DNA from: a virus
Reading direction: 5' to 3' (one strand)
Virus record (IMG/VR): IMGVR_UViG_3300046535_000814
Coordinates: 1-27,023 of that record
DNA: 27,023 nt
In this document: positions 2,403 to 25,819 of the stretch, piece after piece
Numbering within the stretch: position 1 is the first letter of the stretch
Layout: each line of letters opens with the position of its first letter
Made by a program: the position numbers and the translations under genes
Notes under the pieces: model-generated
Databases searched by the model: none
The model's input: the letters and a program-made list of their open reading frames with translations, nothing else
What the model was told of the DNA's origin: nothing

Positions 2403-2443
2403 GCCCCGTCCCGAGTGTGCCACAAACACCGGACGGGGCTTTC
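2403..2443 (+). terminator. Terminator after the second operon
   Basis: GCCCCGTCC (2403-2411) pairs perfectly with GGACGGGGC (2431-2439), and GTGT/ACAC extends the pairing inside the loop. TTTCTGTT follows. It starts 17 nt after the stop at 2385. Confidence 0.8.
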
Positions 2444-2700
2444 TGTTGCGATCGCATCGACGTTCATTTGTGATCGCAGCCCTAGTGGGTCCTGGTCCTG
2501 TACCGCGTGTCATAGCGTCCCCACGATCAGGTGTGATCCTTGCGGACGCACGGATCAGGATCGTTGCGTGAGCAAGGATGGAGTGATTGCGGACGCAATA
2601 GTTGGGAATCTCCAATGATTGGGAGCGACCAAGGATTGCGTGAGCAAGGAATCGCGGTGCCAGCGCGCAAAGGGAGCAAACGGATATTCCTTCCGGGGGC
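2444..2700 (+). promoter_or_regulatory. Repeat-rich non-coding region with short direct and inverted repeats
   Basis: No gene is supported here. TTGCGGACGCA occurs twice (about 2539 and 2587). TTGCGTGAGCAAGGA occurs twice (about 2563 and 2636). The second TTGCGGACGCA copy lies inside the perfect palindrome ATTGCG-GA-CGCAAT (2586-2599). TTGC...GCAA half-palindromes occur in both GTGAGCAA copies. CAnnTGTGATC appears at about 2465 and 2528. This spacing of short related motifs upstream of a single gene looks like a multi-site operator or an initiator-binding array. Confidence 0.5.
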
Positions 2701-2721
2701 GATCCCGTAATGCGGCACGCT

Positions 2722-2743
2722 GCAGCGTACGGTGCTACGCTGT
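2722..2743 (+). promoter_or_regulatory. Palindromic promoter/operator element, copy B
   Basis: This is a near copy of the element at 1376-1397 (19 of 22 bases). CAGCGTA (2723-2729) pairs with TACGCTG (2736-2742). TACGCT is preceded by TGC, giving an extended -10 (TGnTAnnnT). A transcript starting about 7 nt downstream would begin just before the stable hairpin at 2761. A TTGACA at 2801-2806 is an alternative -35, but it has no matching -10. Confidence 0.5.
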
Positions 2744-2760
2744 ACGCAAGGCAGTAGGCG

Positions 2761-2905
2761 CCCGGCTTCGGCCGGGGAGCATCAGCCGCCGAATGGCTCC
2801 TTGACAATCTGGTCGGTAGCGACAGGCGCATTAGACGCCTGCGAACGTTGATGGCCGACCGGAGCGAGGAGCATGTCCTGCAATTCCCATGCGCCACCTA
2901 GGCGC
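2761..2905 (+). ncRNA. Highly structured 5' leader RNA (candidate)
   Basis: Three hairpin units are stacked upstream of the gene at 2922. The first is a perfect 6-bp stem with a UUCG tetraloop (CCCGGC-TTCG-GCCGGG, 2761-2776). The second is GGTCGG/CCGACC (2811-2816 and 2855-2860) enclosing CAGGCG/CGCCTG (2823-2828 and 2836-2841, 7-nt loop). The third is GCGCC/GGCGC (2891-2895 and 2901-2905), ending 5 nt before the AAGGAG. The 7-nt loop lacks a T at the position expected of an anticodon loop, so this is not a tRNA. It may stabilise or regulate the downstream message. Confidence 0.5.
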
Positions 2906-2921
2906 TACCTAAGGAGCAACC

Positions 2922-3521
2922 ATGGCAACTCGTTCAACCACTACGACGACCACTCCCGCCGCGACGGACAAGCCGAAGCGGACCCGGAAGCCGAAGACGG
3001 AAACCGCCGCTCCGGCGGTCCCGGTCGAGGTTCCCACCGGACGGGTCGTGGCCAATCCGGCCCGACCGGCCCGTCTCGGCTTCAGCTTGGCATTGCGCCA
3101 AGCGGCCGAGCAGGCTGGAGGGTGGACCGTCAAGGAAGTGTCGGACCCGTCACCGGAGATCGTTCACATCTACGCCAATCCGGCGAAAGGTGTCGCTCCG
3201 GCCGGAGGTGCCGTACTGACGCACAAGGACGGTCCGGTCATCCGGGTTTCGTTCTTCGAAACTCGTGACGGAACCTCGGATCGCCTGGATGCCGCATACC
3301 TCTGGCTTCCGGGTGCAACGTCCGGTCGGCGTGTCCAGACCGTCTATCAGGTGATGGCCACCATCATGGACGCTGGCAAGGCGGTCGCCTCCCCGGAGGC
3401 GTCCCGTAAGCGTCCGACCACGGAGGCCTCAGCGGCTCCTACAGCGGTCGAGGTTCCTGCCAGCACCGTAGCTGCGGAGGAAGCCAAGCCGAAGCGTCAG
3501 CGGACCAGGAAAGCGTCGTAG
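2922..3521 (+). CDS. Protein with basic disordered tails around a central domain, 199 aa
   Basis: The ATG at 2922 has AAGGAG at 2911-2916. Residues 1-35 are Thr/Ala/Pro/Lys-rich with KPKRTRKPK. Residues from about 150 to the end are similar, with KPKRQRTRK at the C-terminus. Between them is a globular domain of roughly 105 residues (LGFSLALRQAAEQAGGW to VYQVMATIMDAGKA). Lys-rich tails of this kind are typical of nucleoid-type DNA-binding proteins, so nucleic-acid binding is plausible but unproven. The gene forms its own transcription unit: a 536-bp structured upstream region and a strong terminator 10 nt after the stop. That layout suggests strong or specially controlled expression. Confidence 0.75.
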   Translation: MATRSTTTTTTPAATDKPKRTRKPKTETAAPAVPVEVPTGRVVANPARPARLGFSLALRQAAEQAGGWTVKEVSDPSPEIVHIYANPAKGVAPAGGAVLTHKDGPVIRVSFFETRDGTSDRLDAAYLWLPGATSGRRVQTVYQVMATIMDAGKAVASPEASRKRPTTEASAAPTAVEVPASTVAAEEAKPKRQRTRKAS

Positions 3522-3530
3522 TCCAGTAGC

Positions 3531-3573
3531 AAGGAAAGGCCCTAGGGAGCACCATCGCCCTAGGGCCTTCCTT
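3531..3573 (+). terminator. Strong terminator containing paired CCCTAGGG
   Basis: AAGGCCCTAGGG (3536-3547) pairs perfectly with CCCTAGGGCCTT (3558-3569), extended by AAGG/CCTT. The loop is 10 nt. Downstream is CCTTGTG, a weak T-tract. The arms are self-complementary around CCTAGG, the same hexamer found in the loops of GGTTGG repeat copies 1 and 4. Confidence 0.8.
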
Positions 3574-3957
3574 GTGTCCCGGAACGACTGCTCACTACAG
3601 GGAACGCACTGCCAGCACTGCCAGCAGGAGGACCGCAACCTACTCCCTCATCCTCACCATTGCACCGTACAGGGATACGGACAGTTGTGCGAGCAACAAC
3701 TCCGTCACACCATCCAGCGACTCGGGTGACGCACTCCGGCCCGACAAGGCATGATCGGCTCGTTAGAAGAGCACTCAGGACCCTCTCAGAGCATTCTGGT
3801 CGCCGCACCGACCCCCCGGTGTCCTGTACCGTCGCCCCCGATCGGGTCGCATCGCCCAGCCAGGATCGGGCGTGAGTTTGGGGTAACGGCCTGTTACTGC
3901 CTAGGGTGGTACGCTACATTGTGGCAAATGGCCACCGAGAGTGTTAGGAGATTCACT
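3574..3957 (+). promoter_or_regulatory. 384-bp non-coding region with hairpins and promoter
   Basis: No gene is supported. AGTTGT (3683-3688) pairs with ACAACT (3696-3701) around GCGAGCA, and ACGG/CCGT extends the stem beyond a bulge. GTAAC (3883-3887) and GTTAC (3893-3897) form a small inverted repeat just upstream of the candidate -10 at 3910-3915. GTGGC-AAATG-GCCAC (3921-3935) is a hairpin in the presumed leader. Short tandem CACTGCCAG copies occur near 3608-3622. The rest shows nothing I can interpret. Confidence 0.45.
3907..3915 (+). promoter_or_regulatory. Candidate extended -10 promoter (TGGTACGCT)
   Basis: TG-G-TACGCT matches an extended -10 with the TAnnnT core, the same hexamer as at 1390, 2736 and 19558. 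It lies 43 nt upstream of the ATG at 3958, after a terminator and a long non-coding stretch. No clear -35 box is present. The GTAAC/GTTAC inverted repeat just upstream could be an operator. Confidence 0.45.
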
Positions 3958-4287
3958 ATGGGTTTGCGAGAGGATCTGTTGCGTGAGGCTGCCGAGGCGG
4001 GCATGACGGACGATGAGTCGGCTAGGGCGTTCGTGACTGCCGAGGCGATCATCGTGGCGTTAGAGAAGTTGGAGTTGGCGTTCGCGGGTTTGGCGCCGCC
4101 TGCCGAAGCGATCGACATTCTCGCGACGGTCGCGCAACGAGTGTTGGACTCGGCCGACGATGGTGACACGGCCCTGACCGACTATCTGCTGCAACTGTTG
4201 GTGCTCGCGAAAACGACCGTGACGGTACATCGCGCGTTGCAGACCGAGTTCATGGCTACGCAGCCCGCAGCGGAGGGACAGGCATGA
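3958..4287 (+). CDS. Hypothetical helical protein, 109 aa
   Basis: The ATG at 3958 is supported by TTAGGAG at 3944-3950, 7 nt upstream. Longer upstream starts exist in frame but run through the promoter region and are not credible. The protein is rich in Ala, Leu and Glu and looks entirely alpha-helical (EDLLREAAEAGM, TAEAIIVALEKLELAFAGL, YLLQLLVLAKTTVTVHRAL). It ends in a short disordered tail. It heads a tightly overlapping operon that runs to about 7436. Small helical phage proteins of this kind are often regulators or inhibitors, but nothing here identifies a function. Confidence 0.7.
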   Translation: MGLREDLLREAAEAGMTDDESARAFVTAEAIIVALEKLELAFAGLAPPAEAIDILATVAQRVLDSADDGDTALTDYLLQLLVLAKTTVTVHRALQTEFMATQPAAEGQA

Positions 4288-4475
4288 GGATCAAGATTCG
4301 TGCCGAGTACATCATCGACGTGGTACCGATAGCTAGCGAACTCCATCCCGCCGAGGACGAGTCCCCCGCCGAGGTATGCGATCGGGTCCATAACGATCTG
4401 CAACTCCATGTCGCTGACAGTCTGTTCCTCCCCCGGAACGAACGTGATGTGGTACTGAACGTGATGCTCGGATGA
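4284..4475 (+). CDS. Hypothetical protein, 63 aa
   Basis: The ATG at 4284 overlaps the upstream stop (ATGA), and GGAGGGACAGG directly precedes it. The product begins and ends with beta-like segments (MRIKIRAEYIIDVV and RDVVLNVMLG) around an acidic helix (PAEDESPAEVCDRVHNDL), a beta-alpha-beta pattern for a small single-domain protein. It overlaps the next gene by 4 bases. No family is recognised. Confidence 0.65.
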   Translation: MRIKIRAEYIIDVVPIASELHPAEDESPAEVCDRVHNDLQLHVADSLFLPRNERDVVLNVMLG

Positions 4476-4780
4476 GCGAACCGACCACGTTCCCACCGAT
4501 ACTGCGTCTCGATATCGGCATGCCCGCCATCCCGTTAGACGCCTGGGATGACGACATGACCGAGTTCGTCGCGCAGATAGCTGCCGACGCTGCCCGCGAA
4601 CGCTTGCAAGAAGGCTTGGCCGAATACCGAACAGTTCAGCAGCACGAACTCGCACCCGGCTCGTGGGGAGCGCAAGCCCGCACCGAACTGACCGAGCTGC
4701 GGGAACGGAACGCTGCTCTCAGCAAACGTGTCACACGACTACTGGCCGTCATCGAAGAGATTGTTGAGCACACCACATGA
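4472..4780 (+). CDS. Hypothetical coiled-coil protein, 102 aa
   Basis: The start at 4472 overlaps the upstream stop (ATGA) and there is no strong ribosome site. The first 25 residues are Pro-rich. A helical region follows, and residues from about 70 to 99 form a coiled coil with heptad Leu/Val spacing (LTELRERNAALSKRVTRLLA, then VIEEIVE). Such short coiled-coil proteins are common next to genes like the downstream SLOG protein, but the function is unknown. Its stop overlaps the next start at 4777-4780. Confidence 0.65.
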   Translation: MSEPTTFPPILRLDIGMPAIPLDAWDDDMTEFVAQIAADAARERLQEGLAEYRTVQQHELAPGSWGAQARTELTELRERNAALSKRVTRLLAVIEEIVEHTT

Positions 4781-5430
4781 AAGTTGGTATCACCGGCACC
4801 CGGAAAGGTCCGACCGGCTTCCAGTTCACCGAACTGGTCCGGTACATCACCACCCGTCCCATCGAAGAGTTCCATCATGGCGACTGCGTAGGCGTCGATG
4901 TCGCCGCAGCCACCATCGCCCAATCGTGCGGCATTCATGTTGTCGGCCATCCACCGATTCTCACGAAAGCCCGAGCCAACTTCCGTTCCGATGAGGAACG
5001 TCCGAAACAGGATTACATCCAACGGAATCACAACATCGTGAACGCTGTCGATCTGATGCTCGTCGTGCCCGGCGAGGCACACGAACGCAGAAGGTCGGGT
5101 ACCTGGGCGACATACAGGTACGCGGTACAGCAACGTCGCGAGATTGTGCTCATCGCAACCCGACGCGTTCCCGAAGGAGGCAAACTAATGGACGCTGACA
5201 CGCTCGCGGAAATCAAACGGCGTTCCGCTCAGGCAGCACATGACGCGACTCAAGGCTACGACCTGCCCGGCTGGGCCGATGTCGACGCCCTGGTTGCTGA
5301 GGTGGAACGGCTCCGCGCTGCGCTCGACGAGATCGACCATCACACCTACGGGTGGACGTTCGGACTTGCGGCCACGATGGTCGACCGCATCCGTCTGACA
5401 GCCCGAGCCGCACTGGCGGGCAACCAATGA
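4777..5430 (+). CDS. SLOG-type nucleotide-binding protein fused to a helical C-terminal module, 217 aa
   Basis: Residues 1-137 fit the SLOG/LOG-like Rossmannoid fold. They show a glycine-rich start (GITGTRKG, residues 4-11), HGDCVGVD (34-41), GHPP (57-60), RNHNIVNAVDLMLVVPG (83-99) and RSGTWATYRYA (106-116). SLOG proteins bind nucleotides or nucleotide-derived ligands; some act on or sense signal nucleotides. The ligand here is unknown. From residue 138 the protein changes to a charged helical module with a leucine-heptad stretch (DALVAEVERLRAALDEI). That module resembles separate small phage proteins and has its own ATG and ribosome site at 5174-5190. The gene may therefore yield both a fusion and an 80-aa internal product. 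It overlaps both neighbours by 4 bases. Confidence 0.75.
   Translation: MKVGITGTRKGPTGFQFTELVRYITTRPIEEFHHGDCVGVDVAAATIAQSCGIHVVGHPPILTKARANFRSDEERPKQDYIQRNHNIVNAVDLMLVVPGEAHERRRSGTWATYRYAVQQRREIVLIATRRVPEGGKLMDADTLAEIKRRSAQAAHDATQGYDLPGWADVDALVAEVERLRAALDEIDHHTYGWTFGLAATMVDRIRLTARAALAGNQ
5174..5190 (+). promoter_or_regulatory. Internal ribosome binding site and start codon
   Basis: AAGGAGG at 5174-5180 lies 7 nt before an in-frame ATG at 5188. It is one of the best ribosome sites in the window, yet it sits inside an open gene. TAATG at 5186-5190 resembles a stop/start overlap, but its TAA is in another frame. Initiation here would give an 80-aa protein ending at 5430. Confidence 0.6.
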
Positions 5431-5825
5431 GCGCTATCCGTAAAGAACCGTGCAGTGCATGTCCGTACCGGCAAGACGTACCCAGCGGACTATGGGCACA
5501 CAACGAGTACGAGAAGCTACGTCTCTACGACGCCCCCACCGGCCAACAGCCGATCGCGGCGTTCGCATGCCATGCAACGCCCGATCATTACTGTCACGGC
5601 TGGGCTGTCGTTCACAACAGTCGCGGCCACGAACACGAACTGCTCGCGTTACGCATGCGTAGCATCCATGACGTACCTGCCGCAGCGGTACCGCTCATGT
5701 TCTCCGGTAACGATGCCGCCGATCATGGGCAAGCCGACATCGACGATCCTTCACTCGATGCGGTCCATGCCATCGACAAACTTGTGCGTAAACATCCACG
5801 CCTGAAGCAACAGGAGGCCCAATGA
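5427..5825 (+). CDS. Cys-rich protein resembling DUF6283, 132 aa
   Basis: The start at 5427 overlaps the upstream stop (ATGA). The N-terminus carries PCSACPYRQDVPSGLW followed by a KLRLYD segment. Farther on are FACHATPDHYCHGW and a helical C-terminus. The CxxCP(Y/W)R-D-P motif with later CH...C-GW spacing is what I recall for the DUF6283 family of actinobacteriophage proteins. Four Cys and several His could bind zinc or an iron-sulfur cluster. The biochemical role is not known to me. It belongs to the same overlapping operon as its neighbours. Confidence 0.65.
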   Translation: MSAIRKEPCSACPYRQDVPSGLWAHNEYEKLRLYDAPTGQQPIAAFACHATPDHYCHGWAVVHNSRGHEHELLALRMRSIHDVPAAAVPLMFSGNDAADHGQADIDDPSLDAVHAIDKLVRKHPRLKQQEAQ

Positions 5826-7449: not shown

Positions 7450-7489
7450 TGGTTGGTTGGCGGGTGGCCTAAGGTAAGCCAACCAACCA
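7450..7489 (+). repeat. GGTTGG inverted repeat, copy 2
   Basis: TGGTTGGTTGGC (7450-7461) pairs perfectly with GCCAACCAACCA (7478-7489), 12 bp, around a 16-nt loop containing GGCCTAAGG. The right side continues to 7492 with further CCAACC. It sits exactly at the switch from small accessory genes to virion genes. Confidence 0.85.
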
Positions 7490-7512
7490 ACCACGGCCTC
7501 AGGGGGTCTGAC

Positions 7513-7693: not shown

Positions 7694-9169
7694 GTGCCGA
7701 AGGACGATATCGCCTGGGCCGTCGAGTGCATCGACAAGATGCGCGACACCTACGAAACGTGCCAGGCGTACTACGACGGCGACCAGCCCCTCCTGTTCGC
7801 GACCGAGAAGTTCCGCAACGCGTTCGGGACACTGTTCACCGAGTTCTCCGACAATCTCTGCCCCACCGTCGTTGAGGCACTCTCCGACAGGCTGAAAGTC
7901 ACCGGCTGGGACGGTGACAGCGCCAAACAGGTCCAGAAGTTTTGGGACAAGTGGCGACTCGATCGGGTGCAAAGCCAAGTGCATCGCACATCCCCCATGA
8001 AAGGCGACGCGTACGTTCTCGTCTGGCCGAACAAAGACAACGAGCCGAAGTTCTGGCCGCACGAACCCGATCAGGTATGCGTCGACTACGACGACGAAGA
8101 CGACCCTTCCGTCATCCTCAAAGCCGGGAAGGTTTGGCAAGACGACGACGAACATTTCCGCTGCACGCTCTACTACGACGATCATGTCGAGAAGTACCGC
8201 ACCATCGGTCCCGAAAAAAGTGGAGCAGCACCAGCGAAGGTGTACCGCTGGACCACCATCGGCGAACTCGACAATCCGTGGGAACGCGTACCAATGTTCC
8301 ACTTCGGCAACGGTGCCGAGATCGGCTGCATGGGCGTATCACGACTGAAAGACGTGATGCCCGTACAAGACGCGCTGAACAAAAGCGTCCTCGACTTGCT
8401 CGTCGCGATGGAGTTCGTCGCGATGCCGCAGCGTTACGCGACCGGCCTGCAAGTCGAAGTAGACGAAGACACCGGCAAACCGAAAAGTCCGCCGTTCACT
8501 CCCGGCGTCGACCGTATCTGGACCGCTGCGGGCGACGTGAAGTTCGGCGAGTTCTCCCAAGCGACCCTCACGCAGTTCGTGGAAGTGCAGAACTCGCTAC
8601 GCCTCGAAATGGCACGCATCTCGGGAACGCCACCCCACTTCCTGTCGCTAGAAGACCGCATGCCGTCCGGGGAAGCGTTGAAAGTCTCCGAAGGCCGGCT
8701 CATCAAGAAGATCGAATCGTCGCAAACGACGTTCACTCCGGTATGGATCGAAATGATGGTGTTCGCAGCGTCGATCGAGTCCGCGACCATCGACCCGGAC
8801 AAAATCACGCCGATATGGGCTCCCGGCTCCCCGCACAATCCGCTGTTGGACGCCGAAACGCAGTTGGTGAAACATCAGGTCGGCGTATCGAAGAAACAGA
8901 ACCTGCGGGAGCTCGGCTACTCCGAAGAACAGATCGAGCAGATGCAAAAAGACAACGAGGAAGAGGCAGCGGCCGCAATGGCAGCACAGCCCCAACTTCT
9001 CGGTCCTGACGGGAAGCCAGTCACGCCACTCGATCCGTCAGGGAAGCCCACCGCGTTCAACCGGAACGGTGCAGCCGGTCAGCCATCGAAGGCAGCACCG
9101 CAGCAGCAGAACATGGCGATCAAGCCACCGAAACCTGTTGCCGGTCGCGGTCAGTACGCCGAGGGGTAA
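7694..9169 (+). CDS. Portal protein (SPP1 gp6-like)
   Basis: This 491-residue protein has the length and features of the SPP1 gp6-like portal family. It has a helical N-terminus (AVECIDKMRDTYETCQAYYDGDQPL cut here as typical start), a central MGVSRLKDVMPVQDALNKSV region near residue 215, MPQRYATG near 245 and MARISGTPPHFLS near 310. A disordered Gln/Pro/Ala tail follows. Portals form the dodecameric ring through which DNA enters and leaves the capsid, where terminase docks. The GTG start at 7694 has GAGAGGGG upstream. No terminase gene precedes it, which is unusual for this gene order. Confidence 0.92.
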   Translation: MPKDDIAWAVECIDKMRDTYETCQAYYDGDQPLLFATEKFRNAFGTLFTEFSDNLCPTVVEALSDRLKVTGWDGDSAKQVQKFWDKWRLDRVQSQVHRTSPMKGDAYVLVWPNKDNEPKFWPHEPDQVCVDYDDEDDPSVILKAGKVWQDDDEHFRCTLYYDDHVEKYRTIGPEKSGAAPAKVYRWTTIGELDNPWERVPMFHFGNGAEIGCMGVSRLKDVMPVQDALNKSVLDLLVAMEFVAMPQRYATGLQVEVDEDTGKPKSPPFTPGVDRIWTAAGDVKFGEFSQATLTQFVEVQNSLRLEMARISGTPPHFLSLEDRMPSGEALKVSEGRLIKKIESSQTTFTPVWIEMMVFAASIESATIDPDKITPIWAPGSPHNPLLDAETQLVKHQVGVSKKQNLRELGYSEEQIEQMQKDNEEEAAAAMAAQPQLLGPDGKPVTPLDPSGKPTAFNRNGAAGQPSKAAPQQQNMAIKPPKPVAGRGQYAEG

Positions 9170-11916: not shown

Positions 11917-11956
11917 GTTGGTTGGTATCACTGCTAGGGCAACCAACCAACCAACC
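11917..11956 (+). repeat. GGTTGG inverted repeat, copy 3
   Basis: GTTGGTTGG (11917-11925) pairs with CCAACCAAC (from 11943). The right arm runs on as CCAACCAACCAACC to 11956. Flanking GGTCAGGT and ACCTGAACC extend the stem imperfectly. The loop contains GCTAGGGC. Confidence 0.8.
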
Positions 11957-13898: not shown

Positions 13899-14456
13899 AT
13901 GCCGATGCAAACATGGGTTTCGCATATCGGCGGTCCCGGCCCCGGTGTCGCTGGCACCCCACTCGCGAACAGCACGACGGAGACTGATATCTCCCCGCCC
14001 GGTCAGGGTTCAACGCCCGGCATCGTGGTTCCGGCGAACATGCTGAACTACATCGGTGCGAAGCTGCGGATCACCGCGTTCGGTGTGTTCTCCACGACCG
14101 CTACCCCGACACTGAAACTTTCGCTCTACCCGAACGCTGTCGCTGGAGCGAACGCGCTCACGACGACGGGTGCGGTCACGACCGCGAACACGGTGACGAA
14201 CGTGCCGTGGCGGCTGCACTGGGAAGGTGTCATCCGTTCGATCGGCACGGGCGGCACGATCATCGGTTCGGGGTTCTGCGTGCTCGGTACCGCAGTCGCA
14301 GCGGCGACCTTCTTGCCGATCCCGAACACGGCGATCGCGACGACAGCGATCAACACGACGCAGAACAACAACATGACGGTCGCGGCGCAGTGGGGCACCC
14401 CGTCCGCATCGAATACGATCACCTGCCACGACCTATCGGTTCTCTCGATCGCGTAG
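13899..14456 (+). CDS. Beta-rich virion protein (jelly-roll type), 185 aa
   Basis: The ATG at 13899 is preceded by GAAGGGGCAACGG, close to the AAGGAGCAAC motif. CTAAGCT about 30 nt upstream is a weak -10 candidate. The protein is dominated by Thr, Ala, Ile and Val in alternating strands. It starts with WVSHIGGPGPGV, then NYIGAKLRITAFGVFSTTATP and TLKLSLYPNAV, a WRLHWEGVIRSIG segment and a C-terminal DLSVLSIA strand. This looks like a jelly-roll decoration or fibre-head domain. It begins the structural block inserted between head-closure and tail-completion genes. A precise function cannot be given. Confidence 0.65.
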   Translation: MPMQTWVSHIGGPGPGVAGTPLANSTTETDISPPGQGSTPGIVVPANMLNYIGAKLRITAFGVFSTTATPTLKLSLYPNAVAGANALTTTGAVTTANTVTNVPWRLHWEGVIRSIGTGGTIIGSGFCVLGTAVAAATFLPIPNTAIATTAINTTQNNNMTVAAQWGTPSASNTITCHDLSVLSIA

Positions 14457-14521: not shown

Positions 14522-15046
14522 ATGGCTCGTTACTCAGCGGCAGTGGAATCTCAGGCTGCGCAGCTTGCAGGCTTGCCGGTCACCACGACGTTCAACGGCT
14601 ATTTCGCCGCGATCGTTGCGGGAGCGGCAGCGAACTTCAAGCTGCGTCGAATCATGCTCGGCGTACGCGCCGGTGCTTCGGTTCCGACCTCGCAACAGAT
14701 GACGGTGCAAGTTCACCGCCAGACTGTTCGTGTTGCCGGTACCGGCTTCTCGACGAACACGGGGACGAACCTCGATCCGCGCGGCGCACCGTCCGTCATT
14801 CAGGGCATCGACTACACGACCGCTGCAACGGCCGGTACGACAGGCCCGACGTTGACGGGTGCGATCACCGCACCGTTCTTCAAGCTGCCGTCGTTCAACA
14901 CGCAGTCAGGGTTGGACATCCCCGCCGAGTTCTTGGAAGAAGTCATGTGCGACCAGGGCACGGCGAACGGTCTCGCGTTCGTGAACGTCGGGAACGCACT
15001 CCCGGCCTCGCATCTCTTCACGCTCTCCTTGGAGTGGGAGGAATAA
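14522..15046 (+). CDS. Structural protein, beta-rich, 174 aa
   Basis: The ATG at 14522 has GAGGGAGAAAG about 7 nt upstream. The product mixes Ala/Thr/Gly-rich strands (LPVTTTFNGYFAAIVAGAAA, KLRRIMLGVRAGAS, MTVQVHRQTVRVAGT) and ends in HLFTLSLEWEE. Many proteins of this look in tailed phages are virion components with a single jelly-roll domain. It is in the block between neck and tail genes, so neck or head decoration is a reasonable guess. I do not recognise the family. Confidence 0.65.
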   Translation: MARYSAAVESQAAQLAGLPVTTTFNGYFAAIVAGAAANFKLRRIMLGVRAGASVPTSQQMTVQVHRQTVRVAGTGFSTNTGTNLDPRGAPSVIQGIDYTTAATAGTTGPTLTGAITAPFFKLPSFNTQSGLDIPAEFLEEVMCDQGTANGLAFVNVGNALPASHLFTLSLEWEE

Positions 15047-15124: not shown

Positions 15125-15622
15125 ATGGGGGCATTCCCCAAAGAGACGAATGTAGGGCTCGGCACGATCATCCTGTACGCCAAGCTCGCGAAGACGCAGC
15201 CGACCGGCTTCGCGAACGCGGCCTTGCAATGGATTCTCATCAAGAACGCTGGCATCGAATCGCCCGACATTCTCGCCCGGTACGCGACCACAGCGGCGCT
15301 ACTCGCTGGTGCGAGCGACGAAGCCGGATTCACCGGCTATGGCCGACTGACTGTCTCGACCGGCAACATCACCTTGACGGTCGACAACGCGCTCGACACG
15401 TCGACGCTCACTGTCGCCACGAACCCGACATGGACGCCGGCTGCGGCCGAGTTGGAAGCAGCGATCATGTTGCATTTCAACCCGGATACCACCGCAGGCA
15501 CCAACGACGCGGTGTGCATTCCACTGTTCATAGATGCGTGTCCGGGCACCACCGATGCTGGCGGTTCGCCGTTCACGTATTCGATCCCGACGACCGGCCT
15601 CTCGACATGCGCGATGGGATGA
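15125..15622 (+). CDS. Structural protein, 165 aa
   Basis: I chose the ATG at 15125 because AGGAGG (15114-15119) is 5 nt upstream; a GTG at 15122 would be too close. The protein looks beta-rich. It has TIILYAKLAKTQPTGFANAA, LQWILIKNAGIESPDILARY, a strand pair (NITLTVDNALDTSTLTVAT) and a C-terminal SPFTYSIPTTGLST. It sits directly before the hydrolase gene with a 3-nt gap, so the two are probably co-translated. A virion role is likely from context, but no family is recognised. Confidence 0.65.
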   Translation: MGAFPKETNVGLGTIILYAKLAKTQPTGFANAALQWILIKNAGIESPDILARYATTAALLAGASDEAGFTGYGRLTVSTGNITLTVDNALDTSTLTVATNPTWTPAAAELEAAIMLHFNPDTTAGTNDAVCIPLFIDACPGTTDAGGSPFTYSIPTTGLSTCAMG

Positions 15623-15625
15623 TCC

Positions 15626-16762
15626 GTGCCCGGCAAGCGGTACTTGCTTCCAAATGGTGACACTGATCTCACCCGTCACGAAGGTCCGCTCAGTGCGCGC
15701 CGTGATCTGTGGCGTTACCTGACCGGGGCTGCGGGAGATACGAGCAGCGGTCTGCTCTCCTGGGATTTGGTGAAGAAGTTCGATGTCGTGGCAGGCACGC
15801 TGCCCGGACAAATCGGCGGCATCACGACCTACACGACAGCCACTTCCACGACGGGCTATAAGCGCACCGTCGAGCTGGGAGGAACGGGCGACAAGTGGAC
15901 GGCACTGTCGATCTTGCCGCCCGGTCTCGACAATCGTGTACCGACCCCACACATCGTGTTCTTGCACGGCGCGCAAGCCGACGAAGATAACGGCATCTTC
16001 GGCGGCGGCTTCACTGCGCATACTGGCCCGATGGCAATGGTCGACGACTGGCTCGATCGCGGGTGGGGTGTCATCTCCTTGCGTGAAGGTTCCGCAGCCG
16101 GTGGTGGCGCATCCTCAGACTTGTGGGCGAACAACGCGTGCCGGATGGCGATGGTCGACGTACTGAACGCTTACGTTGCCTTGTTCCGTCAGCACGATCA
16201 TGGGATGCCGGTGTACGGCGAGTCGATGGGCGGCATGATGGCCGTCAACTTGGCGGTGCAAGCGAAACTGACGGGAGCGTTCAACCTGTCGTCGTTGGTG
16301 CTGATCGACCCGGCGATCAACGCGCAGTACGTCTACTCGATCTACGGACCTCACCCGGCTTTCCACCCGCTCGGTGATGCGTTCGCTGCGGCGTACGGAC
16401 TGACCGCATTGGCGAGCAGCGCCGCTGCGCTGGCATGGGTGCCGGACGCGACGTGGGCCACGAAAGTCGAGACGGGTAACGGTGCGGGCAGTGGTCCCGG
16501 TCACGATCCGATGACGGTCGGCGTGTCGGACATCATCGCAACGCCATACCACGGACGGATGCCCATGTACGTTCTGCACTCGTCGTCGGATGCGGTAGTC
16601 GACGAAGGCCCGAACGGTCAGTCGTTCGCAACGCATCTTCGTGCGAACGGTTGGACTGCTACCGATCTCACGGAAGTGTCAACCAACCGTGGACACCTTG
16701 ATCCGGCTCACTTCATTCCGTCAACGCAGACTGGTTTCATGCTGACCTGGCTGGCGGCATGA
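15626..16762 (+). CDS. Virion-associated alpha/beta hydrolase (esterase-like), 378 aa
   Basis: The GTG at 15626 starts 3 nt after the previous stop. Residues about 110-378 form an alpha/beta hydrolase. They show FLHG (oxyanion region, His114-Gly115), the nucleophile elbow GESMGG with Ser200, LHSSSDAVVD with Asp322, and NRGHLDPAHF with His357. Order and spacing suit a complete Ser-Asp-His triad. The first ~100 residues (starting PGKRYLLPNGD) are a separate region that could anchor it to the particle. There is no signal peptide. An esterase or deacetylase acting on host surface polymers during adsorption is the most likely use. A LysB-type lysis role is less likely given its place among structural genes. 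It overlaps the next gene by 4 bases. Confidence 0.8.
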   Translation: MPGKRYLLPNGDTDLTRHEGPLSARRDLWRYLTGAAGDTSSGLLSWDLVKKFDVVAGTLPGQIGGITTYTTATSTTGYKRTVELGGTGDKWTALSILPPGLDNRVPTPHIVFLHGAQADEDNGIFGGGFTAHTGPMAMVDDWLDRGWGVISLREGSAAGGGASSDLWANNACRMAMVDVLNAYVALFRQHDHGMPVYGESMGGMMAVNLAVQAKLTGAFNLSSLVLIDPAINAQYVYSIYGPHPAFHPLGDAFAAAYGLTALASSAAALAWVPDATWATKVETGNGAGSGPGHDPMTVGVSDIIATPYHGRMPMYVLHSSSDAVVDEGPNGQSFATHLRANGWTATDLTEVSTNRGHLDPAHFIPSTQTGFMLTWLAA

Positions 16763-19500
16763 CGGATGACGTACGGCAACCTCGACGCTGGAAATATCTG
16801 CCGCGGTCACGTCGCGGGCGGATAATCGCACCGCCGTTCACACGATTCGCTTCGGTTGCTCAGGCGGCTTCTCCGGGCAATACGAGCAACCCGTCCGGGG
16901 TGCCTGTCACTGCGAACGCGCTCGCGATCGTTTACCTGTTCTCCGACGTTGACACGGCGCCGTACTTTTTCCTGCACGCCGGTCCCGGCACGGTCACCAC
17001 CCAAGATGGCGAAACGATCGCCGCGAACAGCGACGGCGGCTACCTGTACGGCGACGGCGCAGCCCGTGTCGACGGAAGCTGCACAACGAACTCGACCGTC
17101 TTCGTCGGGAACGCTGCGGCAGTAGCGACCGACGTTGGCCGGAAAGTGACCGGCACCAACATTCCGGCAGGCGCGTACGTCGTGTCGGTGAGTGCCGGTG
17201 TTTCGTGGACCCTGAACACGGCCGCGACAGGTACCGCATCGGGTCTCACGATGACGTCGACCAGCATCGGCCCCGACAAGGCGATCGCGCTGACCGGCCA
17301 GCACGTCTACCGCTGGTCCGTCTACATCGACGCAGTAAGCGCCGCAACAACACTGACTGTCACCGCCAGTTCGACGCTCGGCCCGAACAGCCGACGCATG
17401 CAAATCAAGATCGTCACGCCCGGTATCGGGAAGTCGATCCCCCGCGCACGCATCGGACGCCTCACCTACGACCCGGCCAACATCACCGGCTGGACTGCGG
17501 GCTCCGGCGATCAGACATTCAGCGGCATCCCATCGAAAACACTCGAGACGCTGTACGAGATCGCCGCGAACATCGGTTCGTCCGGTCCGACCGTCACCGC
17601 GGTCATCGCTGCCGATGAGACCGCCCAAATACCCGTCAACACGATGCAGGGCACCGGCACCTACCACTCGTTCTCCGGGCTGTATGGGCCGAGTGCAGGA
17701 CCGTCAACGGCCGCTATTCACTCGTCAGGTTTGTGGGGCACACCGAACGGGGTGATGCTCGGCGTCTACCTCGTCGACTCACCGCCCGGCATTCCTGGTA
17801 CCGGCACCCATGAGATCGACCGCCCGCACGGCGCGAACACCATTCACGGTTCGCCGGCTCGCGAGTTCGACACCCCGCAGATGGGCGACTATCTCGTCGT
17901 TCCGGGCGAGACACACCTGCAAGGCCCGACACCAGGACGGGCGTACTGGCTCGTCGCATTGACCATCGACGTGATGTTCCTCGACAGCGCCGACGCGGGC
18001 GACGTTCGGTTTGAGCTACGGCAAGGCGGGAGGGTGCTGTTCCAGTCGTCGTGGACGGCGCTGACGGGAACGCTCACCACACTGTCGCTTGCCACTGTCG
18101 GCACGGTCACCGATCCGAACAATCTGCGCGCCCATTGGGATTGGCGTCGCCTGACCGCGAATCATCTACGACCGCATATCGCGAATGTCCAACTTCAGTT
18201 CGAATATCCGGTACGCGAGTTCGACCGACCGCACGGCACGTCACCAGGACCGGCACCGAACACCGTCACGCAGCGAGGCACACGTCGACTGCGCGCACTG
18301 CCACGCTCGCGGCGCGGACGTTCGTATCCCATCGTTCCGGCACAGTTGAGTCCGCCGTACCCGTTCGTTGAACGAGTGCAGCCCCGCCAACTGCGCGGGT
18401 TGACACGGCAGCGTCGTGGACGTTCATTCACGGTCACACCGCCGCAACTGAATCCGCCGTACCCGTTCGTTGAACGAGTGTTGCCCCGACGTTTGCGCGG
18501 GCTGCGGTTCCGTCGTGCGAAGTTCAACGAGGTCGTTCCCGTACAACTCCAGCCGCTGCCCCCGGTCACCGAGATCGCACAGTCACGCCGGTTGCGTGGA
18601 ATGCGTGTACGTCGCGCGAAGCTGAACGAAGTCATTCCCGACCAGCTAGCTCCGGTGCAATATCAGCCGCAACCGCGACGGGTGCGGGGAATGCGTGTCC
18701 GTCGCGGGAAGTCGAACGAGGTTGTCCCGCCGCAACTGAATCCGCCGTACCCGTTCTCCGAACTGACGCAACCGCGACGTGTTCGTGGGATGCGCGTACG
18801 TCGAGGACGACTGATCGAAGTGGTTCCGGCGCAAGAGACCGGGATTCCGAACCCTGCGTTCACTACGAGTGTCGTGCAGCCCCGACGTCTTCGTGCGATG
18901 CGGGTACGTCGCGGCCGACTGTACGAACTGGTTCCCGCCCAACAGAATCCGCCGTACCCGTTCTCGGAGACCGCGCAGCCGCATCGTTTGCGCGGCCTGT
19001 TCCGGCAACGTCGAGGGAAGCTGTACGAAGTCGTTCCTGCACAACTGAACCCTCCGTTCCCGTTCTCCGAACTGGTGCAGCCACGACGCGTTCGACTGAT
19101 GCGTGTACGTCGCAGCAAGCTCAACGAAGTCATCCCCGACCAGCAGGCACCTACCCCGAATCCGCCGTACACCACGAACGTCACGCAACCCCGCCAGCTT
19201 CGGGGCATGGCCCGCCAACGTCGCGGTCAAGCGTTCACGGTCACACCGCCGCAACTGAATCCGCCGTACCCGTTCAACCTGTCGCAGCAGTCGCGGCATC
19301 GGTACTGGATACTGCGCCGCAGCAGGCAAGCGAGAGTCGTACCGCCGCAGTTGAATCCTCCGATCGTGCTCGTCACTCGGCAGCCGCGACGGTTGCGTGG
19401 CCTGTTCCGTTGGCGCAAACGGTTCAATCAGGTCACACCGCCGCAAGAGATTCAGCCCACCCTTCCCAACGACTGGGAGACAGGGCCGTTCCCGTTCTAA
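16759..19500 (+). CDS. Virion protein with beta-rich body and 12 C-terminal Arg/Pro-rich repeats, 913 aa
   Basis: The start at 16759 overlaps the hydrolase stop (ATGA). Residues 6-27 (QPRRWKYLPRSRRG plus a short tail) form one isolated repeat unit. Residues about 30-500 are beta-rich and include ATDVGRKVTGTNIPAG near residue 125, a module shared with two other proteins here. Further domains carry WRRLTANHLRPHI and similar strands. From residue 505 to the end are 12 tandem units of about 28-37 residues. Each follows QPRR-L-RG-(L/M)-x-R-x-RRG-x, then V(V/I/T)PxQ, then (L)NPPYPF. The segment is extremely basic and Pro-rich. A structural role near the neck or head is inferred from context; a polyvalent binding or packing role is possible. 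Confidence 0.75.
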   Translation: MTDDVRQPRRWKYLPRSRRGRIIAPPFTRFASVAQAASPGNTSNPSGVPVTANALAIVYLFSDVDTAPYFFLHAGPGTVTTQDGETIAANSDGGYLYGDGAARVDGSCTTNSTVFVGNAAAVATDVGRKVTGTNIPAGAYVVSVSAGVSWTLNTAATGTASGLTMTSTSIGPDKAIALTGQHVYRWSVYIDAVSAATTLTVTASSTLGPNSRRMQIKIVTPGIGKSIPRARIGRLTYDPANITGWTAGSGDQTFSGIPSKTLETLYEIAANIGSSGPTVTAVIAADETAQIPVNTMQGTGTYHSFSGLYGPSAGPSTAAIHSSGLWGTPNGVMLGVYLVDSPPGIPGTGTHEIDRPHGANTIHGSPAREFDTPQMGDYLVVPGETHLQGPTPGRAYWLVALTIDVMFLDSADAGDVRFELRQGGRVLFQSSWTALTGTLTTLSLATVGTVTDPNNLRAHWDWRRLTANHLRPHIANVQLQFEYPVREFDRPHGTSPGPAPNTVTQRGTRRLRALPRSRRGRSYPIVPAQLSPPYPFVERVQPRQLRGLTRQRRGRSFTVTPPQLNPPYPFVERVLPRRLRGLRFRRAKFNEVVPVQLQPLPPVTEIAQSRRLRGMRVRRAKLNEVIPDQLAPVQYQPQPRRVRGMRVRRGKSNEVVPPQLNPPYPFSELTQPRRVRGMRVRRGRLIEVVPAQETGIPNPAFTTSVVQPRRLRAMRVRRGRLYELVPAQQNPPYPFSETAQPHRLRGLFRQRRGKLYEVVPAQLNPPFPFSELVQPRRVRLMRVRRSKLNEVIPDQQAPTPNPPYTTNVTQPRQLRGMARQRRGQAFTVTPPQLNPPYPFNLSQQSRHRYWILRRSRQARVVPPQLNPPIVLVTRQPRRLRGLFRWRKRFNQVTPPQEIQPTLPNDWETGPFPF
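18271..19497 (+). repeat. Twelve-unit coding repeat (Arg/Pro-rich)
   Basis: This is the DNA encoding the 12 repeats. Recurrent codon blocks encode QPRRLRG, RVRRGK, VVPAQ and NPPYPF; the NPPYPF-type segment is near-identical in several units while others diverge. Units vary in length from about 28 to 37 codons. This indicates old duplications plus some recent exchange rather than a simple microsatellite. Confidence 0.9.
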
Positions 19501-19501
19501 A

Positions 19502-19545
19502 GGTTGGTTGGTGGGCCTACCTAGGGGGCCAACCAACCAACCAAC
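19502..19545 (+). repeat. GGTTGG inverted repeat, copy 4
   Basis: GGTTGGTTGG (19502-19511) pairs with CCAACCAACC at 19529-19538; the right arm continues to 19545. The 17-nt loop contains GGCCTACCTAGGGG. It begins one base after the stop of the repeat-protein gene. Confidence 0.85.
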
Positions 19546-20414: not shown

Positions 20415-21662
20415 ATGGCAGAACGCTCCGCAGTAACGCAGGTCATCCAGGTGGGGATCGAAACCACTGTCGGTACGTCTGTTGCCGCGATGAAGCGCAT
20501 GGCAGCAATGGACATCGAGACGAAGATCGAAACCACCACCGATATGTTCCGGCCTGCGGGCTTCAAGTTCTCGACGGTCACGTCGGAGAACAAGGAGTGG
20601 ACGACAGGTTCGATCAAGGGGCAGCCGACGTACAGCGAGATCGTCTGGCCGTTGTCGTCGGTCATCGTGACGCCTGCGGCGCCGACCGAGTTCCTCGACA
20701 CTGCGATCCACACCGGCGTCTGGAAATGGATTTTTGAGCCGAACTCGACAACGCCCGACACGCTCAACACCTGGACGGTTGAGCAAGGTTCGTCGGTGCG
20801 TGCGCAGAAGTTCACGAACGGAATCGTCACCGACTTCAACTTGAACATCACGCGCGACAAGGCCGAGATGACCGGCAAGATGGTCGGTCAGTTGTTCACT
20901 GACGCGATCACATTGACGACCACGCGTGCCGACGCGGCAGCGAGTGCAACGTCGGGTAGCCCGACCGTGAACGACGCGGCCGCACTCCCGTCCGACGTGG
21001 GCAAGACCGTCACCGGCACGCAAGCGCCAGCGAACGCGATCATCGACAGCGTTGTCCCTGGTGTCAGTTTCCATATGGCGACCGTCGTGAACGGTGTCGT
21101 CACGGCAGCGAACGCACTTGGTACCGGCACGTTCACCGCGACGATCGGTGCGCCGCCGCAGATGCCGCTCATTCCGATCACGGCCGAGCAATGCACCGTC
21201 TACTTCGATCCGACGAGCGCCGCGTTGGGCACCACGAAACTCTCGCGCCTGTTCGACTTCAAGTTCGCGCTGACAGGACGTACCGGCCCGTTCTGGGTGG
21301 TGGACGCTTCCCTACCGTCGTTCGCGGGCACGACCGAGCTGGCCCCGAAGACGAACGTGAAAGTCACTGTCGAAGCCGACGCGAACGGTATGGCGCTCCT
21401 TCCGCTGCTGCGTTCAGGTACGACGTACTTCATGCGCCTGCTTGCGCAAGGTGCGACGCTTTACAGCGTCGGTGTCTACTCGGCCGGTGCAGCGTTGAAG
21501 TATCAGTACCAGCAGGACATGGCCGTGCAGGTGACAGCAGCGGGCGCGGTGCAGGACCACGAAGGCATCTATGCCATCGAGTTCGACCTGGAAGTGGTCC
21601 ACGACCCGACGTGGGGCAAGGCGATTCACATCGAGGTGCAGAACCGACAGTTCGGTTTCTGA
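20415..21662 (+). CDS. Major tail (tube) protein with inserted domain, 415 aa
   Basis: The ATG at 20415 follows AGGGGGCTAC. The protein has the features of siphophage tube proteins: VIQVGIETTVGTSVAAMKRM at the start, SENKEWTTGSIKGQPTYSEI, a DFNLNITRDKAEMTGKMVG strand set and a C-terminal half with CTVYFDP and FDFKFALTGRTGPFWVVD. Between about residues 179 and 245 lies an extra domain with LPSDVGKTVTGTQAPANAI. Its motif matches one in the repeat protein at 16759 and weakly one in the head fibre. The insert would be displayed on the tube surface, probably as a surface ornament. Confidence 0.85.
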   Translation: MAERSAVTQVIQVGIETTVGTSVAAMKRMAAMDIETKIETTTDMFRPAGFKFSTVTSENKEWTTGSIKGQPTYSEIVWPLSSVIVTPAAPTEFLDTAIHTGVWKWIFEPNSTTPDTLNTWTVEQGSSVRAQKFTNGIVTDFNLNITRDKAEMTGKMVGQLFTDAITLTTTRADAAASATSGSPTVNDAAALPSDVGKTVTGTQAPANAIIDSVVPGVSFHMATVVNGVVTAANALGTGTFTATIGAPPQMPLIPITAEQCTVYFDPTSAALGTTKLSRLFDFKFALTGRTGPFWVVDASLPSFAGTTELAPKTNVKVTVEADANGMALLPLLRSGTTYFMRLLAQGATLYSVGVYSAGAALKYQYQQDMAVQVTAAGAVQDHEGIYAIEFDLEVVHDPTWGKAIHIEVQNRQFGF

Positions 21663-22318: not shown

Positions 22319-22326
22319 CCTTTGTC

Positions 22327-22376
22327 GAGGTTGGTTGGTTGGGGTATCCACCCGCCCTTCCCAACCAACCAACCTC
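22327..22376 (+). repeat. GGTTGG inverted repeat, copy 5 (17-bp perfect stem)
   Basis: GAGGTTGGTTGGTTGGG (22327-22343) pairs perfectly with CCCAACCAACCAACCTC (22360-22376). The 16-nt loop is Cys-codon-free C-rich sequence (GTATCCACCCGCCCTT). It lies between the chaperone stop and the tape measure start and is the strongest hairpin of the family. The left arm also contains four GG runs. Confidence 0.92.
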
Positions 22377-22390
22377 ACTCGGGAGAAGCG

Positions 22391-25300
22391 ATGCCGCTGA
22401 CGGTTGCGCAACTCAACATCATGGTTGAGGCCAACACGACGGCAGCGCAGCAGGCGCTCGCGCAGATCAACGCGCAGTTCCAGCAGCTTGCGCAGAACGC
22501 GACGAGTAGCGCCACCACCGAAGCGCAGGGGCAGGAGCAGGTCGTTGCCGCCCTCCAAGACGTGATGGGGGCGATCTCGTCGACGACGATGGCGGTACGC
22601 AACCTGGGGGCGACAACGACCGCGGTAGCGCAGGAGGAACAGGCAGCGAATCAGGCTGTCGCTTCTTCGATGGTCGGGATGGGCAGTGTCGGTTCCGGTG
22701 CGCTCATGTCGATCAACCAGGCGATGGTTGCGTCCGGGCAGTCCATCGGCCCGCTGAACGCCGGCGTGATGATGATCGCTACGAACTTGCGGCTGATTCC
22801 ACCAGCGGCAAACGCGGCGCAGGGTGCGATCATGGGCCTGTCGGTTGCGCTGTCGGCGGTTGGCATTCTCGCGGCTGCGGTGGGTGCTCCTGCCCAGCAG
22901 GGACTCCAACAGTTGCAGAACGAGTTCAACAACGTCGGAGCGTCGGTACACGACTATCAGGACAAGCTCAACTCTGCTGTCGATCAGGCTGCGAAGTTCG
23001 GTCGTACCCAAGATCAGGTGTACCAGTCGCTCGCGATTCTCACCCGTGGTTTGAAAGACCCGGAGTTGGCGTTGGAACGCTTCGGCCTGGTGCAAGACCT
23101 CGCAGCAGTGAAAGGCGAGTCGCTGTCGGCTGCGGCGAACGATGTGGTCCGAGCGTTTGAGGGTTACGGACGTGGCCTGAAACAACTCGGTATCGACATG
23201 GTGTTCACGCATAACGCGCAAGCCGGTCTCGATTCCGCGAACCGGGCGTTGCAGAACTCGACCGATCAGGTAGCCGCAGCGCAGCAACGTCTCAACGATG
23301 CGGTCCAACGGCAGAACGACCGTATGGCGCAAGCGGCACTGGCGACAGATCAGGTCGCAGCAGCACAACAGCGGCTGAACGATGCGAACACCAGCTACGC
23401 CGAACTGTTGTTGCGTATCTCGGCCGAAGACAGGGTGCCGAAGATTTCTGCGACAACGCAGGCGCTCGACAATCTCGCGTCATCAACACAACGGTTGAGC
23501 GACATCGAGGCTCGGTACGCAGCGCAGGACGAAGCGCCATCGTTGACGCATCGGGCGCAAGCGATCGACAGTGTACGAGTCGCGCAGCAGCGACTGCTCG
23601 ACGTGCAGGCCCGTGTCCGTGATGCGATGACGCTCACGGCTGTCGATCACGACGCTGCCGCCCAAGCTGCTGATCGGGTTGCGGAAGCGGAAGAACGGTT
23701 GGCGCTCGCGAGCGGGGGTGGAATCATCGCTGCGCAGAACGCGTTGCGGGCCGCGATCTCGCAGCAACGTCAAGAACTCGACCGGCTTCACGCGAAGGAA
23801 CAGGAAAGCATCTCGCAGAAGCAGGAGCTCGCCAAAGCGAACCAGGATTTGGCGGTAGCGCAAGCCAAGGTCGTGACCGCCACCCAGCAGGATCGTGCCG
23901 ACGCTGACACGAAGGCACTCGACCGTTCGCTCGCAATGCGCGATGCGCAGAATGCGATCACGCGTGCCGTGCAGAACTTGTCCGAGGCGAGGAAGAAAGA
24001 TGCTGCCGAAGGAATCTTGGCGCAGATCACCCGCACCGAGCAGTTGCGTTCAGCGACCAATCAGGTACGCAACTCGGTGGAAGCTCTCGCCCAAGCTCGA
24101 CGCAGCACGGAATCGCGTGCCATCGGTGGCGCTGCTGGTGGAATCTCGGTGGCTGCTGCGGAACGCTCGTTGGAGCATGCGAAGAAGGTGCAGGCCGAAG
24201 CCCTCGCGCACGTCAAGGACGCGAGAGAGAAACTAGAAGTGCAACTGCATCAGGGTGTTACCGCGATGGACAAGATGGCGGCAGCGACTCACGGTGCGGC
24301 GGGGGCAGCGGCGCAAGGATGGTCGGGTGCGTTGAACTCGATCAAGGCCCATTTCGTGAACTTCCTGGCCGACTTCGGTAACAGCGGTGGTCGGTTCCTG
24401 ACGTTCGCGTTGCCGTTGTTCTTCGTCGCGAAACAACTGTCAGGACTGTTCGGTGGTGCTGCCGGAGCGGCAGGGGCGGCGGGTGGAGCAGCCGAGGAAG
24501 GTGGACTCGCTGCTGCTGTGGCCTCTACGGGCGAAGCGGCCGGGATTGCATTCGCACCCATAGCAGCGATCGTTGGCCTGGTCGCTGCTGCGGGTCTCAT
24601 CATCTACGAGGCGTACCAGCATGTGAAACCGTTCCGCGACATCGTGGATGCTCTCGGTCGCGACATCGGCGGATTCTTCAGCGGCGCGATCCACAAGGTC
24701 ACCGGCTTCCTGCACACACACAAGCAGGAATGGCACGATCTCGGCAAAGAGGTCAGCGCAGCGTGGGGATTCATCGAGCCGGTACTGCAAGGACTCGCGA
24801 ATCTCGCGCTCCACATCCTGGGACCGGCGTTCACTGCCGCGACCGCGATCATCAAACTCGCGTTCGACATCATCAAGGGCATCGTGTCAACGGCGCTCGA
24901 CATCATCCTCGGAGTGGTCGGTGTGTTCGTCGACCTCATCACCGGGAACTGGGGTCAGGCATGGGATGACATCAAGACCATGCTGTCTAACGTGCTCGAT
25001 GATCTTTGGACGATGATTACCAGCACTCTCGGCGACATCCGCGACTTCATGTGGAACGCAGGCAAGTTCATGCTCGGTGCGCTCGCTGACGGTCTGACCG
25101 CAGCGTGGCACCTCGTTGGCGACTGGTTCATCGACTTGCCGAACAAGATTTGGGATGGGCTCCAATGGTTGTGGAGCAACGCCGGGACGTTCGCGACGGC
25201 TGGTTGGAACATGATGGTCGCGCTCGTTGGTGGGTTGATAGACCAACTCGGGCCGGGTATCTGGACGTTCTTCACCGACACGTTGCCGAACGCGATTTGG

Positions 25301-25819
25301 GATGCAGTCAAGTGGCTGTGGGATAACACGGACGGCGCGATGCTGTCGATTGGCAAGAACCTCGTGATCGGTATATGGAACGGTCTCGCGTCGATGGGGG
25401 GCTGGCTGTACGACAAGATCAGCGGCTGGGCCAGCGATGTCGTCGATTGGATCGGCAGCGGCTTCGGCATCTTCTCCCCATCGAAGATCACGCAGTACCA
25501 CGGGCAGATGCTCGTCGAAGGGTTGGCGTTGGGTCTCGACTCCCACACCCACAAGGCGATCACTGCGGTACGAAATATGACCTCTGCAGTAGGCAATGAA
25601 CTGTCGAGCGGCGGCAAGAAGTTGAACGTCGGAATCGGTGGCTTCGGTGGGGTCGGGACTGGCATACCTCACGGGCCTACCCTCGTGACCATGCACGTCA
25701 ACGTGGAAGGCAACGTGTGGGCGACGAAAGACTTGGCTTCTGCGCTGCGCGACGAGTTCAACAAGCGCAACAAGACGAGCGGTAGCTCATTCCTGGTAGC
25801 TGACGGGCAGCGTCCGTGA
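22391..25819 (+). CDS. Tape measure protein, 1142 aa
   Basis: The ATG at 22391 has GGGAGAA at 22381-22387; the frame also runs upstream through the GGTTGG hairpin, but that part is not credible as protein. Residues 1-285 are Ala/Gln-rich helices. Residues about 285-455 hold degenerate coiled-coil repeats; TDQVAAAQQRLNDA occurs twice, exactly 28 residues apart. Hydrophobic segments lie near residues 667 (RFLTFALPLFFVAKQ) and 718 (AFAPIAAIVGLVAAAGLII). The C-terminal region is Trp-rich, with FSPSK near residue 1028, typical of siphophage tape measures. At the rule-of-thumb 0.15 nm per residue, the tail would be about 170 nm long. The gene overlaps the next by 4 bases. Confidence 0.93.
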   Translation: MPLTVAQLNIMVEANTTAAQQALAQINAQFQQLAQNATSSATTEAQGQEQVVAALQDVMGAISSTTMAVRNLGATTTAVAQEEQAANQAVASSMVGMGSVGSGALMSINQAMVASGQSIGPLNAGVMMIATNLRLIPPAANAAQGAIMGLSVALSAVGILAAAVGAPAQQGLQQLQNEFNNVGASVHDYQDKLNSAVDQAAKFGRTQDQVYQSLAILTRGLKDPELALERFGLVQDLAAVKGESLSAAANDVVRAFEGYGRGLKQLGIDMVFTHNAQAGLDSANRALQNSTDQVAAAQQRLNDAVQRQNDRMAQAALATDQVAAAQQRLNDANTSYAELLLRISAEDRVPKISATTQALDNLASSTQRLSDIEARYAAQDEAPSLTHRAQAIDSVRVAQQRLLDVQARVRDAMTLTAVDHDAAAQAADRVAEAEERLALASGGGIIAAQNALRAAISQQRQELDRLHAKEQESISQKQELAKANQDLAVAQAKVVTATQQDRADADTKALDRSLAMRDAQNAITRAVQNLSEARKKDAAEGILAQITRTEQLRSATNQVRNSVEALAQARRSTESRAIGGAAGGISVAAAERSLEHAKKVQAEALAHVKDAREKLEVQLHQGVTAMDKMAAATHGAAGAAAQGWSGALNSIKAHFVNFLADFGNSGGRFLTFALPLFFVAKQLSGLFGGAAGAAGAAGGAAEEGGLAAAVASTGEAAGIAFAPIAAIVGLVAAAGLIIYEAYQHVKPFRDIVDALGRDIGGFFSGAIHKVTGFLHTHKQEWHDLGKEVSAAWGFIEPVLQGLANLALHILGPAFTAATAIIKLAFDIIKGIVSTALDIILGVVGVFVDLITGNWGQAWDDIKTMLSNVLDDLWTMITSTLGDIRDFMWNAGKFMLGALADGLTAAWHLVGDWFIDLPNKIWDGLQWLWSNAGTFATAGWNMMVALVGGLIDQLGPGIWTFFTDTLPNAIWDAVKWLWDNTDGAMLSIGKNLVIGIWNGLASMGGWLYDKISGWASDVVDWIGSGFGIFSPSKITQYHGQMLVEGLALGLDSHTHKAITAVRNMTSAVGNELSSGGKKLNVGIGGFGGVGTGIPHGPTLVTMHVNVEGNVWATKDLASALRDEFNKRNKTSGSSFLVADGQRP

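Follow-up and report, generated by a model that had tools for sequence, protein, structure and literature searches.

Head fibers, neck whiskers and fibritins are elongated accessory proteins located around the phage head and neck, and the cell-wall-binding repeats that lysins and surface proteins contain fold into modules covered by Pfam families. Adhesins with Ig-like domains have been reported in gut phages (PMC13370021). In this work we describe a protein with a long array of Arg/Pro-rich repeats, the repeat-scaffold protein (RPT), whose repeat family is widespread in dozens of uncultured viral contigs, occurs in four Actinomycete genomes and is uncatalogued. Its repeats were undescribed in the open-license literature that we searched.

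RPT is encoded in IMGVR_UViG_3300046535_000814, a record of an uncultured virus, of which we analyzed a stretch of 27,023 nucleotides (hereafter, the window). The host belongs to the soil bacteria and the virus is an actinophage. The window has a siphophage-type structural block with the gene order portal, capsid, connectors, cassette, neck, major tail protein and tape measure. The portal (from position 7694), capsid (from 9883) and neck (from 19570) genes were identified by searches of Pfam and PHROGs, and the tape measure gene (22322-25819), which is separate from that of RPT, by a search of PHROGs; the roles of the scaffold (from 9251), connectors (12398 onward), terminator (from 19965) and major tail protein (from 20415) were assigned based on gene order and homologs. 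The cassette containing RPT is situated between the connectors and the neck, and the structural-gene setting proposed in the initial annotation is borne out.

The cassette genes and the hydrolase gene beside RPT lie on the + strand. They encode gp13899 (185 aa, 13899..14456), the second protein of the cassette; its partner and marker gp14522 (174 aa, 14522..15046), a predicted jelly roll; a protein of ~165 aa without assignment (15125..15622); a putative alpha/beta hydrolase with a GESMGG motif (15626..16762), whose Pfam scores were just under the cut-off; and RPT itself (913 aa, 16759..19500). The ATG start codon of RPT overlaps the stop codon of the hydrolase gene (ATGA). No homolog of the hydrolase was found in the other loci fetched during the first synteny comparison. 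The hydrolase may be a surface esterase. The pI of RPT is 11.5, as opposed to the mostly acidic values of its structural neighbors (capsid 4.8, portal 4.9, major tail protein 5.0 and neck 4.3).

Twelve Arg/Pro-rich units fill the last 407 residues of the 913-aa open frame (residues 507-913; 18277..19497, + strand), which confirms the C-terminal array noted initially. The units start at residues 507, 541, 575, 608, 638, 671, 707, 740, 774, 810, 844 and 875, have diverged from one another, comprise 30-39 residues each and have the consensus QPRRLRGM-RxRRG(R/K)xxEVVPxQLNPPYPF. The description of the array as strongly basic and Pro-rich also holds, based on the composition of residues 491-913 (Arg 18.2%, Pro 15.8%, Lys 1.4%) and their net charge of +64. 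The array is not a chance product, since a profile made from 81 units of other viruses only scored RPT at 162.5 bits, relative to a maximum of 8.7 bits in 2000 array shuffles. Between units the median dN was 0.42 versus a dS of 1.22, and half of the codon pairs that were identical at the amino acid level had differing codons. As dN is lower than dS and the divergence is mainly synonymous, we conclude that the units are old and have been kept for their protein sequence. At the DNA level the array was invisible to Tandem Repeats Finder. RPT had no match in Pfam, PHROGs or NCBIfam, consistent with the earlier view of a repeat without a known domain, and the best match of the unit profile in the PDB, ribosomal protein S12 (E 0.43), was not significant.

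A single additional unit is present near the N-terminus, at residues 6-27 (RQPRRWKYLPRSRRGRIIAPPF; 16774..16839, + strand), as had been annotated, and it has the N-terminal signature of the family, MxRRW..PRxRRGR. The generic unit profile gave this unit only 3.8 bits; when the profile was built from the start sequences of relatives, the RPT N-terminus scored 16.4 bits versus a maximum of 13.9 bits in ~5000 shuffles. The initial annotation had taken the N-terminal copy as a sign that the unit can work alone. However, the proteins of six relatives (L158, L163, L162, L105, L106, and L170) have a similar start that runs into the array without a break, and we therefore regard the copy as the first unit of the family and do not favor a stand-alone N-terminal peptide. 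This first unit likely serves for docking or as a start element.

In RPT the first unit (unit 0) is parted from units 1-12 by an inserted region (residues 31-500; 16849..18258, + strand), which had no match in Pfam or PHROGs. Inside the insert is a small domain (residues ~103-200; 17065..17358, + strand), of which residues 103-200 are 37% identical to the stretch 20925-21236 of the putative major tail protein (E 8e-6), and therefore one small domain is common to two structural proteins of this phage. The same residues also resemble genes that in related phages follow closely on the capsid gene, and there is a weak match (E 0.004) to 8eci, a structurally characterized decoration protein. The window has another gene, distinct from RPT, directly after its capsid gene. 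As only ~100 of the 913 residues match, we did not assign RPT as a capsid decoration protein of the 8eci type, and the 8eci-like domain was not seen with other arrays in our set. The insert also contains the short motif E(I/F)D(R/T)P(H/Q)(G/M) three times (residues 352-358, 369-375, and 487-493).

Relatives of RPT were not recovered when viral contigs were scanned directly with RPT or with the unit alignment. The first relatives (L089, L084 and the contig of L085, L094, and L097) were obtained from viral contigs with a DNA pattern for P-[AP]-Q-x-N-P-P-[YF]-P, and in two of these, L084 and L097, a homolog of gp14522 is encoded immediately upstream of the array. A scan of viral contigs with gp14522 identified 64 viral loci; where the downstream sequence is long enough, most bear an Arg/Pro array. 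Together with four bacterial loci these make up a set of 68 gp14522 loci, for which 80 capsid-selected loci served as controls. Strict matches to the array profile were found in 24/68 gp14522 loci versus 0/80 controls, noting that some gp14522 loci are near-duplicates of one virus and the counts do not represent independent events. Many further arrays have diverged beyond the reach of the profile and are recognizable by eye. A looser composition screen was positive in 45 of 51 gp14522 loci versus 24 of 62 controls and is not specific when used alone; its matches in the controls were mostly shorter and lower scoring. No array was present downstream of gp14522 in L102, L108 and L125-L127. Synteny around capsid relatives was rejected as a route to arrays, as none of those 80 loci had a strict match.

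The bacterial homologs of gp14522 are from Acrocarpospora catenulata H8750, whose locus is L162, from a Micromonosporaceae metagenome-assembled genome and from two further Actinomycete genomes, chosen among those of the class and family to which A. catenulata belongs; two of the four were found in a scan of bacterial genome contigs and two in genome searches. An array adjoins gp14522 in all four of these loci, and gp13899 occurs in many, though not all, cassettes. When 50,697 cultured-phage records were searched by tblastn there was no match to RPT or the arrays, which low-complexity masking may hide, and likewise none to gp14522, which is not of low complexity. The capsid gene of the window had 1,143 matches in cultured-phage records. 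Among the relatives, an array may have anywhere between a few units and about 20, and the spacing and sequence of the units are strongly variable; because of this variation in number and spacing, the role as a ruler that had been considered for the array is not favored. The C-termini of six relatives (L141, L147, L146, L149, L156, and L157) have a second short repeat of the TTRPGSGTTARPNTGTT type, which is absent from RPT, and such a repeat closes many arrays.

The cassette is most often located just after the capsid genes. In the prophage-like L170, for example, the order is terminase, portal, protease, capsid, cassette, head-tail adaptor, tail and tape measure. It is found before the terminase in L097 and between the tail-tip and lysin genes in L162. 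The gp14522 proteins of the window and L097 are 73% identical despite the fact that no similarity was detectable between the head genes of L097 and the window, and we therefore read the cassette as having been exchanged horizontally. On these sequence comparisons, the two genes appear to move as a cassette between unrelated phages. In the bacterial locus L163 the region between the capsid and the cassette (2429-5772) has, by eye, methyltransferase-, FAD oxidoreductase- and glycosyltransferase-like genes, a gene content which suggests that the capsid-cassette gap is an insertion hot spot.

Several of the relatives carry recognizable domains along with their arrays. The plan of the L131 protein is as in the window, with a Laminin_G_3 domain inserted between the first unit(s) and the remaining array. 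The array protein of L097 has a Spherulin4 domain, and in L119 an array, a Gly_rich_2 domain and a minor-tail-protein region are all in one ORF. Glycan-binding or enzymatic domains are thus present in the polypeptide or operon of the Laminin_G_3, Spherulin4 and Gly_rich_2 relatives; the counterpart in the window itself is only the sub-threshold hydrolase in the adjoining gene. In L101, L146 and others there is, by eye, an N-terminal beta-rich region beside the array. The arrays of L158, L163, and L105 have no recognized cargo, and therefore display cannot be the sole function of the array. We consider that sugar-binding or sugar-cutting domains are probably carried on the surface of the virus particle.

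Structure predictions were made for gp14522 and for part of the array. The model of gp14522 is an all-beta domain of the jelly-roll type (pLDDT 87.5, pTM 0.85); its best matches in a fold search were uncharacterized phage proteins, and it is called a "jelly roll" because its weak PDB matches are to viral capsid proteins of that fold. An AlphaFold2 monomer model of three array units had no secondary structure (pLDDT 61.5, pTM 0.13), having been made from a shallow alignment of ten rows. Within that constraint the model agrees with the initial suggestion of an extended array, as opposed to a globular one, in that it fits an extended chain without proving one.

The gene block is closed by a hairpin located directly 3' of the RPT stop codon (19502..19542, no strand assigned). 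This is one of five hairpins in the window formed by GGTTGGTTGG and its complement, the others being at 1317-1358, 7451-7492, ~11917-11956 and 22329-22374. There are 15 matches in the window versus 0.06 expected, and the hairpins are apparently located at the joints between gene blocks. The three that were folded are stable (z -2.7 to -4.8), the hairpins have no obvious T run, and they were found in none of the 167 other loci fetched. They are possibly processing, termination or regulatory sites of the phage.

Based on these data, we judge it somewhat more probable than the converse that RPT serves actinophage particles as a modular scaffold on their surface, with glycan-active cargo, with gp14522 as its dock and with a mobile cassette encoding it. 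A non-globular, strongly cationic chain of ~33-residue units would carry folded cargo domains, seated between units or N-terminal to the array, that would recognize or degrade surface glycans. The gp14522 protein would anchor RPT to the virion, for most phages near the head and neck, although the shifting position of the cassette fits attachment to either the head or the tail, and the Arg clusters would probably provide multivalent electrostatic binding. The data above document the repeats and their age, the pairing of the two genes, where the cassettes lie, how varied the cargo is and, for four loci, the host. We infer that RPT is present in virions, that gp14522 has this docking role and that the array has a ligand, for which anionic polymers of the Actinomycete host wall and the acidic particle surface would be the main candidates. 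More tentatively, the jelly-roll dock and Arg/Pro scaffold could together be a hitherto undescribed mobile module that serves uncultured actinophages as a platform for exchangeable display; the repeat would then be a module of a new kind that binds polyelectrolytes, namely the anionic polymers of Actinomycete walls.

A possible, albeit rather doubtful, alternative to the surface scaffold is that the Arg clusters stick RPT along the acidic capsid or tail as a polyelectrolyte strap that anchors it to the virion, and that only the cargo touches the host. The acidity of the structural proteins relative to the pI of RPT, the decoration-like domain in the insert and the usual position of the cassette right behind the capsid genes are all consistent with such a strap. 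It is less readily reconciled with unit numbers that range from a few to about 20, with the strong sequence variability and with the cargo-free arrays, which a mere anchor does not explain, and to our knowledge most phage capsids are acidic yet have no such straps. The Arg-rich, Lys-poor composition could also indicate that the array binds nucleic acid, for instance in the manner of a protamine that is packaged, or ejected, together with the genome, and the sole PDB profile match, although not significant (E 0.43), was to ribosomal protein S12. However, we consider this role unlikely because of the cargo domains, as the arrays are fused to lectin-like, glycosidase-like and Gly-rich tail domains; in addition, non-specific DNA binding does not require Pro-rich spacers in which P-x-Q and NPPYPF-like motifs are conserved.

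Cationic repeats could equally bind wall polymers if RPT were a late factor outside the virion, that is, a secreted or lysis-stage protein acting on the wall or membrane, and the cassette of L162 is near an endolysin-like gene. The position of the cassette among capsid, connector or tail genes in most of the loci that could be placed, and the presence of the L119 array inside a minor-tail-like ORF, make this very unlikely. Lastly, the wrong frames of GC-rich phage genes are likewise Arg/Pro rich, and the loose composition screen was positive in more than a third of its control loci, as would be expected if the RPT frame were a compositional by-product of GC-rich DNA that encodes no selected protein. 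That reading is already contradicted by the long open frame, by dN values well under dS between units, by a profile score far over those of the shuffles and by the occurrence of similar arrays in distant viruses when the controls had no strict match, and we assign it a negligible probability.

The RPT family represents a blind spot in annotation, as it is widespread in uncultured viral contigs yet missed by cultured-phage records and the main family libraries. If RPT is a scaffold for surface display, host- or matrix-binding domains could be swapped without a change of the tail tip. The copies in bacterial genomes (Acrocarpospora, Micromonosporaceae, and two more) make the question open to experiment.

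Among described systems, the surface adhesins of phages (Ig-like, BACON or lectin, on the head or tail) are likewise modular and have glycan-recognition or adhesive domains encoded in the structural region. Relative to these adhesins, the cassette described here differs in that the Arg/Pro repeat chain and its jelly-roll partner gene are constant and the adhesive domains vary. The decoration protein 8eci is similar to a stretch of ~100 residues of the RPT insert, but the matching domain is a minor part of RPT and the similarity is weak. Head fibers, neck whiskers and fibritins are found near the usual position of the cassette, at the head-neck; unlike these, the array is Arg/Pro rich and its monomer model has no coiled coil or beta-helix. 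The cell-wall-binding repeats are tandem modules too and could similarly give avidity for wall polymers, whereas the units of RPT, rich in Arg and Pro, have no counterpart in Pfam. Modular phage adhesins are already known; the repeat unit of RPT itself is new to the family libraries.
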